From assembly GCA_014695325.1 (NCBI GenBank), contig JACJNZ010000029.1, forward strand, positions 124,001 through 188,000: a DNA stretch of 64,000 nt. The letters run 5' to 3'. Under the pieces are notes generated by a model that saw nothing but the letters and a program-made list of their open reading frames with translations, ran no database searches and had not been told where the DNA came from. Shown here one piece after another: positions 9,825-31,563 of this stretch; position 1 is the first letter of the stretch, and each line of letters starts with the position of its first letter. The translations under genes were made by a program, and so were the position numbers. Source of the DNA: Cyanobacteria bacterium FACHB-502. Its GTDB lineage: Bacteria; Cyanobacteriota; Cyanobacteriia; Elainellales; Elainellaceae.

Positions 9825-11899
9825 CGTTCATCGATTTGCTCGATCGCAGCCCAAGCAAGCAGTACCTCTGCCACTGTCCAGGCTTGAGCAAAACAGCCAC
9901 GTGGATGAAAGGGGGGATCGCCATCAAAAATCTCGCTGAGGCTGCCGATGCCATGTGCCGACAGGTGATTTGCCATAGGTTCTAAAAACTGACGCGCCTG
10001 CACAGGATTGCGATAAACCCGAAAATGCGCCCGCACAAACGGTCCTAACAGCCAACCCCAAACGGTTCCCTGATGATAGGCTCCGTCTCGCTGCTGCGGA
10101 GTGCCACCATAGCGTCCTCGATAGTTGGGATGATCAGACGATAGCGATCGCAGCCCATGAGAAGTCAGGAGCGATCGTCCACACACATCCACCACGCTGC
10201 GCTGCTGGGCTTCGGTTAAAGGACTTTCGGGCAGCGAAACGGCAAAAATTTGATTCGGACGCAGCGAAGCATCATTGCCATCGGGCGTATCCAGCACATC
10301 GTAGCAGTAACCCAAATCGCCATTCCAGAAGCGATCGAAGCGGGCAAGGGTGCGATCGGCAATGGCGTCGTATTCCTGATGGGGCTTGCCCAGCCGACGG
10401 GCAATTTTTGCGATCGTACGGAGAGCGTTGTACCAAAGGGCGTTAACTTCGATCGGTTTGCCCAGGCGCGGCGTAGCTACCCAATCGCCTACTTTGACAT
10501 CCATCCAGGTGAGCTGCGTTTCAGGAGTGCCTGCATAAAGTAAGCCGTCTGCCGGATCAAGGTGAATGTTGTAGCGCGTGCCCCGACAGTGCCAGTCGAT
10601 CATCTCTGCCAGCACTGGAAAAAGCTCTACCAGCAAATCATCATCCTGCGTCGCCAGATAGTATTGGTGAATCGCTTCAAAATACCAAAGCGTTGCATCG
10701 ACCGTATTGTATTCCGGTTCTTCTCCCACATCGGGAAAACGATTGGGCAGCATTCCCTGACTGACATAGGAAGCAAAGGTTCGCAAAATCGATCGCGCCA
10801 CATCCGATCGTCCGGTCGTCAGGGTCAGTCCCGGCAGGCTGATCATCGTATCTCGTCCCCAATCACTAAACCAGGGATACCCAGCGATGATCGTTTTGCC
10901 ATGCAGCACCTCTGGTTCTGGTAGAGTTTCTTCTGCATCCGCTGGCTCACTCGGCTGCTTTGCTGTTCCTGGAAGGGGTAATCGGGTCACCGATCGATTC
11001 ACGACAAACTGATTGGCTGCCAGCACCAGACGACGAATCCAGGGAGGCGCGTCTTTTGCCCCAATGGGACGGTTGCTTTTCCAGAGGCTCAGCAATCGCT
11101 GCTCGTAGGTCTGGCGCAGTTTGAAAGCCGCAGAGCCATTGAGGCTAGCATGGGGATCTGTACTGGCAACAATCGTCACTGTTTCGCCGGGATGCAGGGT
11201 CAGGTGAAATGTTGCGGCATGAAGGTGATCTTCTCGATCGCTCAATCCCCGGTAGCGTTCCACTTCTAAGAAAAAGTTGTAGTACCACTCATGCAGCGTA
11301 ATCACCTCTGCCCGATCGCTAAGCAGGAAAAAAGGAACGGCTTGTCCATGAGCCACGATAGACACGCCGCGATCGACCCGATTCACCTCCATCTGCCAGT
11401 GCAAACAGCGGGTATTGCCGTGATAATCCCGATAATTCACAAACGATTTGAGCATCAGGGCAAGCGGCTGACTCGATCGCACCAGCTCATATTGAATGTA
11501 GGTGGTATTTGCACCCTGCTGCATCCAAACTCGCTTTTCGAGCAGCGCATCGCCGCAGGCATATCGCCAGGTGGGAATTGTGTCGTTGACTGCAAAATGC
11601 TCTAAATATCGGTATCCCTGCGGATCAACATGACCACCATTCCAGCGATCGGTGCTGAGCGCATACACCTGGCGATCATAGTGGACAATTTCCTCTAGCT
11701 TGGTCAGCAGCAAAGTACGGGCGAGGGGTGGGTTAAGGGCGGCAACCAGTAAGCCGTGATAGCGACGGGTTAGCACTCCTGAAACCGTCCCCGCCGCAAA
11801 TCCGCCGATGCCATTGGTGACTATCCATTCGCGTGATCCTGCCAGGTCGAGATCGCCGCAAATTTCTCGCCCAAATTCAATATTCATAAAACAAGTCAA
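9821..11899 (-). CDS. Glycogen debranching enzyme, archaeal-type (GH133)
   Basis: A 692-residue protein of the amylo-alpha-1,6-glucosidase family that removes branch stubs from glycogen. The N-terminal domain contains the family signature REWIVTNGIGGFAAGTVSG and RRYHGLLVAA. The C-terminal (alpha/alpha)6 barrel has GYPWFSDWGRDTMISLPGL, carrying a likely catalytic Asp, and SLSEIFDGDPPFHPRG, carrying a candidate Glu. Length is typical. Translation may start at the internal ATG at 11887 (MNIEFGREICGDL), which matches the conserved N-terminus better. The 3' end overlaps that of hflX by 4 bases, so no terminator fits between them. Function from family knowledge. Confidence 0.9.
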   Translation of the reverse strand: MTCFMNIEFGREICGDLDLAGSREWIVTNGIGGFAAGTVSGVLTRRYHGLLVAALNPPLARTLLLTKLEEIVHYDRQVYALSTDRWNGGHVDPQGYRYLEHFAVNDTIPTWRYACGDALLEKRVWMQQGANTTYIQYELVRSSQPLALMLKSFVNYRDYHGNTRCLHWQMEVNRVDRGVSIVAHGQAVPFFLLSDRAEVITLHEWYYNFFLEVERYRGLSDREDHLHAATFHLTLHPGETVTIVASTDPHASLNGSAAFKLRQTYEQRLLSLWKSNRPIGAKDAPPWIRRLVLAANQFVVNRSVTRLPLPGTAKQPSEPADAEETLPEPEVLHGKTIIAGYPWFSDWGRDTMISLPGLTLTTGRSDVARSILRTFASYVSQGMLPNRFPDVGEEPEYNTVDATLWYFEAIHQYYLATQDDDLLVELFPVLAEMIDWHCRGTRYNIHLDPADGLLYAGTPETQLTWMDVKVGDWVATPRLGKPIEVNALWYNALRTIAKIARRLGKPHQEYDAIADRTLARFDRFWNGDLGYCYDVLDTPDGNDASLRPNQIFAVSLPESPLTEAQQRSVVDVCGRSLLTSHGLRSLSSDHPNYRGRYGGTPQQRDGAYHQGTVWGWLLGPFVRAHFRVYRNPVQARQFLEPMANHLSAHGIGSLSEIFDGDPPFHPRGCFAQAWTVAEVLLAWAAIEQIDER

Positions 11900-26709: not shown

Positions 26710-28947
26710 ATGGCAACGAAATTCCCAAAATTTAGCCAGGGGCTTGCTCAAGAAGTCACCACACGGCGAATTTGGTACGGGATTGCGACTGCCCATGATT
26801 TTGAAAGTCATGATGGAATGACGGAAGAGAATCTTTATCAAAAGATTTTTGCTTCCCACTTTGGTCATCTGGCAATCATTTTCCTCTGGACATCCAGTCT
26901 TCTCTTCCACGTCGCTTGGCAAGGCAACTTTGAACGGTGGATTAAAGATCCGCTCCACATCCGCCCGATCGCCCATGCGATTTGGGATCCGCACTTTGGT
27001 AAACCCGCAGTTGATGCGTTTACTCAGGGTGGCGTGGGTTACCCGGTCAACATTGCTTACTCTGGTGTTTATCACTGGTGGTACACGATCGGGATGCGAA
27101 CCAACGGTGAACTCTACATGGGTTCCCTCTTCCTCATCCTGTTGTCGGCGATCTTTTTGTTTGCGGGCTGGCTGCATCTTCAGCCGAAGTTCCGTCCGTC
27201 GCTGTCCTGGTTTAAAAATGCTGAATCTCGCCTGAACCACCACTTAGCAGGTTTGTTTGGAGTGAGTTCGCTGGCTTGGGCAGGTCACATGGTTCACGTT
27301 GCGATTCCTGAGTCACGCGGCATCCATGTTGGCTGGGATAACTTCTTAACCGTGAAGCCACACCCAGCTGGACTTGCACCCTTCTTCACAGGTAACTGGG
27401 GTGCGTATGCTCAAAACCCGGACGCTGCTGAGCACGTCTTCACCACGTCTCAGGGAGCCGGAACCGCAATTCTCACCTTCCTAGGTGGTTTTCATCCGCA
27501 AACTGAATCGCTGTGGCTGACGGACATTGCCCATCACCATCTAGCGATCGCCGTGATTTTCATCATTGCGGGTCACATGTACCGCACCAACTTTGGGATT
27601 GGGCACAGCATTAAAGAAATGCTCAACTCCAAGGCGGGTCTGCTCACTCCTCGAAGTGAAGGTCAGTTCAACCTGCCTCACCACGGGCTGTACGACACTT
27701 ACAACAACTCACTGCACTTCCAGCTTGGAATTCACCTGGCTGCTCTGGGTGTGGTAACGTCGCTGGTGGCGCAGCACATGTACGCGATGCCGCCTTATGC
27801 GTTCATGGCAAGGGATTTCACGACCCAGGCTGCGCTTTACACCCATCACCAGTACATTGCTGGATTCCTGATGGTTGGGGCATTTGCTCACGGCGCAATC
27901 TTCTGGGTAAGGGATTACGATCCGGTGCAGAACAAGGGCAACGTGCTCGATCGCGTTCTCAACCATAAAGAAGCGATTATTTCTCACTTGAGCTGGGTAT
28001 CGCTGTTCCTGGGCTTCCATACCCTGGGTCTGTACGTCCACAACGACGTGATGCAGGCTTTCGGTACACCGGAAAAGCAAATCTTGATTGAGCCTGTGTT
28101 CGCGCAGTTCATTCAGGCTTCCCACGGCAAACTGCTTTACAGCATGGATACGCTGCTGTCGAATCCAGGTAGCTTGGCTTCGACCGCATGGCCCAACCAC
28201 GCCAACGTCTGGCTTCCGGGCTGGCTCGGCGCGATTAACTCCGGCAATAACTCGCTGTTCCTCACGATCGGTCCTGGTGACTTCCTGGTTCACCACGCGA
28301 TCGCGCTGGGACTTCATGTGACCACGCTGATCGGCGTCAAAGGTGCGCTCGATGCACGCGGTACAAAACTGATGCCCGACAAGAAAGACTTTGGCTTTAC
28401 CTTCCCCTGCGACGGTCCGGGTCGTGGCGGTACGTGCCAAACCTCTGGATGGGAACAGTCTTTCTATCTGGCAATCTTCTGGATGCTGAATACGATCGCT
28501 TGGGCAACCTTCTACTTCCACTGGAAGCACCTGGGCATCTGGTCAGGCAACGTCGCACAGTTCAACGAAAGCTCAACCTACATCATGGGCTGGCTGCGTG
28601 ACTACCTCTGGCTGTATTCAGGTCCGATCATCAACGGCTATAACCCCTACGGCATGAACAGCATCGCCGTTTGGGACTGGATGTTCCTCTTCGGGCATCT
28701 AGTATGGGCAACTGGTTTCATGTTCCTGATTAGCTGGAGAGGCTACTGGCAAGAGCTGATCGAAACGCTGGTCTGGGCGCATGAGCGCACTCCGCTCGCG
28801 AACTTGATTCGCTGGAAGGACAAGCCAGTTGCTCTCTCGATCGTTCAGGGTTGGTTAACAGGTCTAGTTCACTTCACAGTGGGTTACATCTTGACCTATG
28901 CCGCCTTCCTTATTGGCGCAACCGCAGGTCGATTCCCAGTGAACTAG
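26710..28947 (+). CDS. psaB: Photosystem I P700 apoprotein PsaB, stand-alone variant copy
   Basis: A 745-residue PsaB, the chlorophyll-binding core subunit that with PsaA carries P700 and the FX iron-sulfur cluster in the thylakoid membrane. The eleven-helix protein is intact; FX ligands Cys567 and Cys576 lie in [12 protein letters not shown]. It differs from the usual PsaB as I recall it at many sites (for example [50 protein letters not shown]) and ends in TAGRFPVN rather than the usual TAGKFG-type terminus. There is no psaA upstream, whereas the main psaB lies directly behind psaA. This fits the alternative, separately encoded PsaB2 type described in some filamentous cyanobacteria such as Nostoc. 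Confidence 0.93.
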
Positions 28948-29115: not shown

Positions 29116-29147
29116 GGGGCGGGGAGCAGGTCTTCGCCCCCTTTATT
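29116..29147 (+). terminator. GC-rich hairpin with T-rich tail
   Basis: GGGGCG (29116-29121) and CGCCCC (29135-29140) form a 6-bp GC stem with a 13-base loop, followed by CTTTATTAT. It separates psaB from the terpene-type operon beginning at 29284. Confidence 0.65.
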
Positions 29148-29283
29148 ATGGGAGCCAGTATTATAGAGGCCAGTAACTCGTCGATCGCCTCACCAACTCT
29201 TCCTCTAAGCAGAGGATTGAACTGTATCAGCCTTTCTAGATTGATAGCAATCATCGTAGGCAGCTGCAGCAGTCCAATTTGCT

Positions 29284-30333
29284 ATGAATATTCCGGTATC
29301 TCCCTGGACGCTCATACTAGAAACTCGCTTTAAAGTGATTCCAACTGTCCGGAGTGAGTTGAAAGGCTGGAGGCGACGGGCAGAAGAAATTCCTAATCCG
29401 GAGCTGCGTTGGCAAGCATTGGCGAGTCTTGCAGCGAAACAATTTCATTGTGAAGGTGGCTCGATTTACGGGTTGCTGGCGAAGCGCCACTGGCAGGAAG
29501 CGATCCGGTTTATTGTGGCGTATCAAACGATTAGCGATTATCTGGATAATTTGTGCGATCGCAGCACTTCGCTTGATCCCGCCGATTTTTCTGCCCTGCA
29601 TGAGTCCATAGCCAATGCACTGACTCCGGGCGCAAAGGGTAAAAACTATTACCGCTTTCGAGACGAGCAGAACGATGGCGGCTATTTGCAGGCGTTGGTG
29701 AAAACCTGTCAGGATGTGCTACGCCAAATTCCGAATTATGGAACGATCGCCCCCGCCGTGCATGAGCTAGCCAGCTATTACTGTAATCTCCAGGTACATA
29801 AGCATGTGCGAATCGAGGAGCGAGTGCCCCGCTTGCAGATGTGGTTTTCTGCCTATCAAAAGCAGCTTCCTGAACTGCGCTGGTATGAGTTTTCTGCCTG
29901 TGCAGGTTCCACGCTGGGAATTTTCTGTTTAGTCGCGTATGGGCTGGATCAGGAGCTGTCAAATGAGTTGACCAATCGCGTCAAGAATAGTTATTTTCCC
30001 TGGGTGCAGGGATTCCATATTTTATTGGACTATTTGATTGACCAGGAAGAAGACCGCGTCAACGGAGACTTAAACTTCTGTTTCTACTACAGAAATCATG
30101 AGGATATGCTGGAGCGATTCAAGCACTTTATGCAAAACGCGGCTGAAAGTGTTTCCCAGCTTCCCCATACTGGGTTTCATCAGTTAATTAATCAGGCTTT
30201 GCTGGGTGTGTATCTTTCAGACAAAAAAGTTAGGCGACAGCAGGAAGTTCAAAATATCGCAAAGCAGCTAATTCACTGCTCAGGCAGTACGGCATCCCTG
30301 TTTTTTCGGAGTCGATTATTAATCTCTCACTGA
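29284..30333 (+). CDS. DUF2600 (YtpB-type) large terpene synthase-like protein
   Basis: A 349-residue all-helical protein of the DUF2600 family. The characterised member, Bacillus YtpB (tetraprenyl-beta-curcumene synthase), cyclises long prenyl diphosphates. Two acidic metal-binding motifs characteristic of the family are visible: DYLDN (85-89), and DYLIDQEEDR (249-258) followed by GDLNF. A basic patch VHKHVRIEER is also present. No signal peptide. It is followed after 25 bases by a geranylgeranyl-reductase-like flavoprotein gene on the same strand, forming a probable two-gene terpenoid operon. Substrate and product are unknown. A terpene-synthase activity is inferred from motifs and family. 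Confidence 0.85.
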   Translation: MNIPVSPWTLILETRFKVIPTVRSELKGWRRRAEEIPNPELRWQALASLAAKQFHCEGGSIYGLLAKRHWQEAIRFIVAYQTISDYLDNLCDRSTSLDPADFSALHESIANALTPGAKGKNYYRFRDEQNDGGYLQALVKTCQDVLRQIPNYGTIAPAVHELASYYCNLQVHKHVRIEERVPRLQMWFSAYQKQLPELRWYEFSACAGSTLGIFCLVAYGLDQELSNELTNRVKNSYFPWVQGFHILLDYLIDQEEDRVNGDLNFCFYYRNHEDMLERFKHFMQNAAESVSQLPHTGFHQLINQALLGVYLSDKKVRRQQEVQNIAKQLIHCSGSTASLFFRSRLLISH

Positions 30334-30358
30334 TCCCGATTTCGCAGGAGGTTGAAGG

Positions 30359-31486
30359 ATGGCTAAAGTGGCGATCGTTGGTGCAGGACCCGCCGGATGT
30401 TCTGCCGGATATCACCTGGCAAAAAGTGGGCATGATGTCACCTTAATGGACAAGCAGGGTTTTCCCAGAGATAAAGTCTGCGGCGATGGCATTAGCATCG
30501 AATCGATTCAGGCGATCTCCACGATGGGAATTTATCCGCACGATATTCAGAAACTCGCTTCAGAGTATGCCCCAATTCATCATTTCTTTCTGGGGGTTTC
30601 CAATCAAATTAGCCACAGCGAACAAACCAATCTGGAGGCTTACTGCATTCCAAGAGCTGTGTTTGATCAACTTTTGTATGAAAAAGCGATCGATGCAGGA
30701 TGCCGTTTTCTGGTTCAAACGGTTCACAAAAACAATTGGCATCATCACGGATTGACGGATGCGTTTGACACCATTATTGATGCTCGCGGAGTTTCTGCCG
30801 GAGAGGTGAATGCGATCGCGATTCGAGCCTACTGGACAGTGCAGCGGCAAGATTTACCTGAAACTGCGCTGATGGAAGCTCAAATTCATTTCGATCGAAG
30901 CCTGGGAGTAAATGGCTATGGCTGGATCTTTCCCGTTTCGACACAGCATGACTTGATTAAATTAAATGTGGGCGTGGGCGTTTGGCTAGACGAATACCAG
31001 GAGCTAAAAATCAATGTGATTCAACTTTTTAAGCAATTCGTTGGAAGCAATAAGATTGCACAGCAAATCCTCAGCAAAGTGGTGGAACAGCAATCCCCCA
31101 AGGTATTTCCTCTAGCAACTGCTAAAAAAGGAAATAGAGTGACTGACGGGAAAATTCTGAAGATTGGCGATGCGGCAAATTTGACGGATCCGTTGACGGG
31201 AGAAGGCATTGCTAATGCAATCCTAAGCGGTTTCCACGTTGCCCAAGCCGTTAATATGAGTCGAACTCCCGAGGCGATCGCAGACAACTGGCAATACCTG
31301 TATGAATCTCACTTTGAAGCGGATTTGCGGGCAGGGTTACGCATTAAAGCATTTAGAAAATTCTCCTTTATGAATTATCTGTTGATCTGGTTAATGAAAC
31401 AGAATCCTCGGATTGCGCGTCAGGTGAGTCATGCGGTAGCTGGAGTGGTTCCCTACAACGAAGTTCTGGCTTCCCTCAAGTACTGA
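30359..31486 (+). CDS. FAD-dependent oxidoreductase of the geranylgeranyl reductase family
   Basis: A 375-residue flavoprotein. The N-terminal FAD-binding loop is VAIVGAGPAGCSAGYHL (GAGPAG at 8-13), followed by DKVCGDG (38-44), typical of geranylgeranyl reductases, and the second FAD motif KIGDAANLTDPLTGEGI (about 268-284). Family members saturate prenyl chains (chlorophyll phytyl, archaeal lipids, menaquinone) or oxidise polyketides. It differs from the chlorophyll enzyme ChlP in length and central region. AGGAGG lies at 30346, 7 bases before the ATG. It is probably co-transcribed with the DUF2600 synthase, suggesting it tailors that enzyme's product or precursor. Confidence 0.87.
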   Translation: MAKVAIVGAGPAGCSAGYHLAKSGHDVTLMDKQGFPRDKVCGDGISIESIQAISTMGIYPHDIQKLASEYAPIHHFFLGVSNQISHSEQTNLEAYCIPRAVFDQLLYEKAIDAGCRFLVQTVHKNNWHHHGLTDAFDTIIDARGVSAGEVNAIAIRAYWTVQRQDLPETALMEAQIHFDRSLGVNGYGWIFPVSTQHDLIKLNVGVGVWLDEYQELKINVIQLFKQFVGSNKIAQQILSKVVEQQSPKVFPLATAKKGNRVTDGKILKIGDAANLTDPLTGEGIANAILSGFHVAQAVNMSRTPEAIADNWQYLYESHFEADLRAGLRIKAFRKFSFMNYLLIWLMKQNPRIARQVSHAVAGVVPYNEVLASLKY

Positions 31487-31563
31487 GATCCCATCCACGC
31501 TCCACCGTCCGCTAAAGTAGTCTGAGGAAAACGCAGAGGAAACTGCGGCTGGAGGCAGGAAGT

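Follow-up and report, generated by a model that had tools for sequence, protein, structure and literature searches.

A rare cyanobacterial gene pair of a Bacillales-related class IB terpene synthase and a geranylgeranyl-reductase-like flavoprotein, a candidate terpenoid operon

The closest described systems are the class IB ("large") terpene synthases of the YtpB/BalTS type. According to the available excerpts of PMC7839719, YtpB of Bacillus uses C35 heptaprenyl diphosphate supplied by HepS/HepT and SqhC acts on the YtpB product, while BalTS carries two Asp-rich motifs of the forms DYLDNLxD and DY(F,L,W)IDxxED. Two BalTS structures represent this class, 5yo8, whose title names a C25/C30/C35-prene synthase, and 6loo, whose title names a bound C20 surrogate. 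We found no report of such a synthase paired with a reductase in the open-licence literature, as far as its accessible excerpts go; PMC11450739, in the part available, deals with a cyclase and not with a DUF2600 synthase.

We analysed a stretch of 64,000 nucleotides (the window) from contig JACJNZ010000029.1 of Cyanobacteria bacterium FACHB-502, in which two plus-strand open reading frames run from the ATG at 29284 to the TGA at 30333 and from the ATG at 30359 to the TGA at 31486. The sequence-only reading had described them as an operon-like pair in a cyanobacterial host, 25 nt apart, with a strong ribosome site before the second gene, and this description holds: the frames lie on the same strand at that spacing, the Shine-Dalgarno-like GCAGGAGG stands 5' of the reductase start codon, and psaB is next door. 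We regard it as fairly probable that the pair is a laterally acquired terpenoid operon, made up of a Bacillales-derived synthase and a prenyl-saturating flavoprotein working on a C20 or C45 substrate, a reading in which activity, chain length, order of steps, product and co-transcription are all predictions. The features of the locus are as follows.

29116..29140, plus strand: terminator-like stem-loop 3' of a lone psaB, just beyond the variable segment; kept in the same-genus genome G411
29154..31490, no strand assigned: segment missing from G411, containing the leader and both genes; homology with G411 ends at 29153 and returns at about 31491
29284..30333, plus strand: class IB (DUF2600, YtpB/BalTS-type) terpene synthase, 349 aa, by PF10776, the match to 5yo8 and the model compared with 6loo
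29536..29559, plus strand: first Asp-rich motif DYLDNLCD, residues 85-92 (DYLDN at 85-89), invariant in seven aligned sequences
30028..30054, plus strand: DYLIDQEED at residues 249-257, the second Asp-rich motif; invariant in seven sequences except at position 251 (L/Y/F)
30334..30358, plus strand: 25-nt spacer with the strong Shine-Dalgarno-like sequence for the reductase, read from the sequence
30359..31486, plus strand: FAD protein resembling geranylgeranyl reductases, 375 aa (TIGR02032 E 6.2e-45, 154.1 against 158.8 bits; 3oz2 E 1.5e-10)
30914..30934, plus strand: stretch GYGWIFP within the GGR_cat region, residues 186-192; its counterpart in the alignment with 3oz2 is GYIWVFP
31166..31207, plus strand: flavin-binding stretch GDAANLTDPLTGEG, residues 270-283, aligned with GDAARLIDPITGGG of 3oz2

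No operon promoter was recognised 5' of the pair, the one promoter-like site (3.5 expected) lying within the synthase gene, and terminator-like stem-loops were detected at three sites against a chance expectation of 3.0.

By family score, motifs and predicted fold, the first gene is a class IB terpene synthase with a corresponding predicted activity. It scores 493.5 bits against PF10776 (DUF2600; cut-off 25), covering profile positions 1-324 of 328, and matches the BalTS structure 5yo8 over its full length with an E value of 6.1e-117. The YtpB-type assignment and the motifs DYLDN and DYLIDQEEDR reported earlier are thereby borne out, the latter motif occupying residues 249-258, and DYLDNLCD and DYLIDQEED satisfy both BalTS motif forms. 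An AlphaFold model built from seven sequences (pLDDT 89.4) superimposed on 6loo with a Z score of 47.9 and an rmsd of 1.7 over 342 residues, and on 5yo8 with a Z score of 47.5, while the third-ranked match, another terpene synthase, reached only 18.4. Over the structural alignment the protein shares 49% identity with BalTS at a Z score near 48. In addition, 27 positions distinguish the four cyanobacterial synthases that have a reductase neighbour from 10 Bacillales sequences.

On sequence comparison, the flavoprotein probably either belongs to the geranylgeranyl reductases as a divergent member or is closely related to them, with prenyl reduction as its predicted reaction. TIGR02032, the geranylgeranyl reductase family, is its best NCBIfam match and the top family in all four reductase orthologues, yet the window copy falls 4.7 bits below the cut-off, so that the membership proposed in the sequence-only reading stands as best match but is borderline. 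The protein shares with this superfamily (TIGR02032, 3oz2) a common FAD domain and the CGDG, GYxWxFP...NVGxG and GDAA...PLTGxG stretches, its NVGVG aligning with 3oz2, an archaeal digeranylgeranylglycerophospholipid reductase that is its best solved relative. The nearest other cyanobacterial members found are only 28-29% identical, and ChlP is distant (37.6 bits against a cut-off of 505.3). A predicted model from the four orthologues had a pLDDT of 41, too low to use.

The main alternative is that the synthase alone makes an acyclic beta-prene or a prenyl-curcumene and that the flavoprotein is a decorating oxygenase or epoxidase, not a reductase. The score below the TIGR02032 cut-off speaks for it, as do the next NCBIfam matches, in which the monooxygenase QhpG (81.1 bits) stands near MenJ (86.1) and an archaeal lipid reductase (78.5), and a structure search in which two halogenases (E 2.4e-8 and 1.1e-7) follow closely behind 3oz2 (E 4.2e-9). 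However, the 154.1 bits for TIGR02032 are nearly double those of any of these three, and the GGR_cat domain PF22578 (residues 175-237), which in the window copy scores 23.6 against a cut-off of 27, exceeds it in three orthologues with 27.1, 29.3 and 29.0 bits. The GYxWxFP...NVGxG stretch is also of the reductase type, and the QhpG and halogenase matches would mainly reflect the common FAD fold. We thus consider a decorating oxygenase unlikely.

Among cyanobacteria the pair is a rare cassette. DUF2600 was present in two of the 386 sampled genomes of the phylum and in two of the 36 sampled genomes of the order, the window genome included in each count. A scan of GTDB contigs with a peptide pattern, sensitive only to close relatives, yielded three Bacillota loci and three cyanobacterial ones, in Myxacorys californica, Dulcicalothrix desertica PCC 7102 and Plectonema cf. 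radiosum LEGE 06105. Genome G185 and the Myxacorys locus have identical proteins, apparently come from one genome and were counted once, which leaves five cyanobacterial genomes whose synthase gene is complete. The reductase stands directly 3' of the synthase in four of these five, at differing genomic places and across spacers of 25 (window), 24, 9 and 9 nt. The fifth carrier, G413, is counter-evidence: no reductase adjoins its synthase, and its genome holds only a 28% match elsewhere, so the reductase partner is not indispensable. At E 1e-20 the reductase matched five of the 386 cyanobacterial genomes, three of them at 28-29% identity and two with close copies, both of which adjoin DUF2600. 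The sequence-only reading had named a lack of neighbourhood in relatives as grounds for refutation; the genes are neighbours in four carriers, with G413 as the one exception, and the reading was not refuted in this way. The pair is indeed found in cyanobacteria, but its rarity and the tree described below show a laterally acquired trait and not a general one.

The supply of prenyl diphosphates in the carriers differs from that in Bacillus. Each of the five carriers, and likewise G411, encodes two PF00348 trans-prenyl synthases, which in all five carriers are named solanesyl synthase (C45) and CrtE (C20), and a HepS/HepT-like C35 heptaprenyl diphosphate synthase is absent from all five (the G413 genome being 92% complete). 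The window genome has neither domain of a squalene-hopene or tetraprenyl-curcumene cyclase; such a cyclase is missing in three of the five carriers, and a squalene-hopene cyclase (C domain) occurs in the other two, G185 and Dulcicalothrix. Of the sesquarterpene pathway of B. subtilis, the YtpB step is thus represented in the carriers, whereas a HepS/HepT-like synthase is missing from them and a SqhC-like cyclase is missing from the window genome, and the Bacillus C35 route cannot have been copied unchanged. The Bacillus precedent cited in the sequence-only reading consequently does not apply directly. Since no carrier has a C35 synthase, the substrate should be C20 (geranylgeranyl diphosphate from CrtE) or C45 (solanesyl diphosphate), with C20 favoured and C15 an outside chance; some C15 supply is possible because the CrtE proteins are recognised by the broader FPP-synthase model as well. 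A substrate of C20 is compatible with the synthase class, although the product range stated for 5yo8 includes neither C20 nor C45.

In the terpenoid-operon reading, the class IB synthase would ionise an all-trans prenyl diphosphate and release a terpene hydrocarbon, and the flavoprotein would saturate part of the isolated double bonds, acting on the diphosphate before this step or on the hydrocarbon after it. The product would be a partly saturated prene derived from a C20 (or C45) diphosphate, a terpene lipid so far undescribed in cyanobacteria. A more specific version, which we think rather improbable, has the reductase make a phytyl-type diphosphate from geranylgeranyl diphosphate (or the synthase use phytyl diphosphate of the host), after which the synthase would eliminate the diphosphate to leave a saturated-chain 1,3-diene such as neophytadiene, or its C45 homologue. 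Curcumene-type ring closure needs the 6,7 double bond. A chain reduced before it reaches the synthase would lack this bond, which should block closure and lead to a linear 1,3-diene; starting from phytyl diphosphate, this would be neophytadiene. Neophytadiene is usually regarded as a breakdown product of chlorophyll, and to our knowledge prenyl reduction and class IB elimination are not described in combination elsewhere. Were this diene version true, the pair would be an enzymatic pathway devoted to a hydrocarbon whose presence is otherwise put down to the decay of chlorophyll. Excerpts of the literature already mention neophytadiene in connection with cyanobacteria, and its detection would therefore not prove the route.

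A further possibility is that the two genes move as a unit but have separate functions, the synthase being a Bacillus-like enzyme of membrane terpenes and the flavoprotein acting on a different prenyl lipid, for instance a quinone or carotenoid. We judge this quite improbable: the synthase does occur alone in G413 and, truncated, on a Calothrix plasmid, and the two squalene-hopene cyclases in G185 and Dulcicalothrix could process its product, but in four of the five carriers the genes are adjacent on the same strand, 9-25 nt apart, while their wider surroundings differ, and a close reductase occurs in only two of 386 cyanobacterial genomes, both times beside DUF2600. Both enzymes are of known kinds; what is unusual is the host in which this familiar synthase class occurs, and the new partner beside it. 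A large terpene synthase of the Bacillus type has entered phototrophs in which its usual C35 substrate is not made, and it has acquired a prenyl-reductase-like partner. In our preferred terpenoid-operon reading the pair would bring a further class of terpenoids to cyanobacteria, and its substrate and product pose a sharp and cheap question.

We then compared the synthases with those of Bacillota, where 91 of 249 genomes carry DUF2600. No reductase match was found beside DUF2600 at 33 distinct Bacillota loci, comprising the 30 best-scoring with sequence and four others with one duplicate (about 1.5 kb checked at the 30 and about 6-8 kb at the others), in contrast to the cyanobacterial pair with its reductase 3' of the synthase. 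Whole-genome searches of three Bacillota carriers also gave no reductase relative at E 1e-5. In an IQ-TREE phylogeny of 38 rows, rooted at midpoint, with the Calothrix fragment and duplicates omitted and the Bacillota rows skewed to high scores, the five cyanobacterial synthases form one clade (100/99). This clade nests in a clade of ten (100/98) with Aquibacillus, Anoxybacillus, Bacillus sp. RO2 and two other Bacillota, itself within fifteen (100/99) that include a Paenibacillus group; support for its exact sister is weak (85/58). Because the cyanobacterial clade nests among Bacillales sequences, the phylogeny indicates that the synthase reached cyanobacteria by transfer from Bacillales, most simply once. 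The G413 synthase groups with that of Myxacorys (97/88), and G413 has therefore most simply lost its reductase.

As for vehicles, a complete synthase gene lies on plasmid pDSM15939_1 of Anoxybacillus amylolyticus, and the mobilizable plasmid4 of Calothrix sp. NIES-4101 carries a synthase fragment only (residues 3-117; L017:8001-8345). Plasmid matches to the reductase were only of partial length and at most 35% identical. A phage vehicle was considered and dropped, no relative of the synthase or the reductase being confirmed in viral contigs.

The pair is not a chance arrangement, because the same gene order recurs in three other cyanobacterial genomes and dN/dS is low (0.05-0.15 where computable). 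For the synthase the ratio was 0.12-0.15, dS being computable in only three of ten comparisons and in none of the four with the window; for the reductase it was 0.05-0.125, the three comparisons with the window having a dS near 2, close to saturation. That the pair is a decaying acquisition without present function is very unlikely: its patchy distribution, the truncated Calothrix copy, the lack of both genes in G411 and the GADPAG that replaces GAGPAG in the FAD loop of the Dulcicalothrix reductase would agree with decay, but all five full copies retain complete frames and both Asp motifs, under the low dN/dS given above. Faster evolution of the partnerless G413 synthase was also considered and rejected; its end branch is 0.25 against 0.04 for Myxacorys, but the relative-rate chi-square is at most 1.7 in nine comparisons, which is not significant. 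This synthase alone deviates at residues 133, 138 and 162, which are otherwise invariant in 14 sequences.

The surroundings of the pair show that the cassette is an insert that can be exchanged for another. G411, which belongs to the same genus as the window genome, has no synthase and no close reductase, and its flanks match the window with a lone psaB at 98% and a sugar-binding protein at 93% identity. These two flanking genes lie 2.6 kb apart in the window and about 9.0 kb apart in G411, where the slot (L036:36-7442) holds the type I restriction genes HsdR, HsdS and HsdM together with an AAA protein and a PIN protein. Given where homology between the two genomes ends and returns, the differing segment is the pair with its leader, an accessory slot filled with metabolic genes in the window genome and with restriction genes in G411. 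The lone psaB (26710-28947) has no adjoining psaA; it is 88% identical to the psaB of a psaA-psaB pair elsewhere in the window genome (G000:C7), and a second psaB is also present in G411 and Myxacorys.

In Dulcicalothrix and Plectonema the pair lies in a common 2.6-kb island with 2511 of 2587 aligned bases identical, outside which the compared stretches share a single 370-base match at 65%. The Plectonema island is flanked by direct repeats with a 21-nt core (L005:7683-7703 and 10274-10294), of which Dulcicalothrix retains one copy (L004:10279-10291); these repeats are possibly a trace of island movement. At L004:5394-6773 a serine-recombinase-like gene stands immediately 5' of a late-starting cytochrome oxidase subunit I frame, which suggests, as read from the translations only, that the oxidase gene is interrupted. 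Additionally, in the Bacillota genomes G432, G479, G518 and G607 the DUF2600 match is split in two within frames of 529-708 aa, a possible insert or fusion with another domain.
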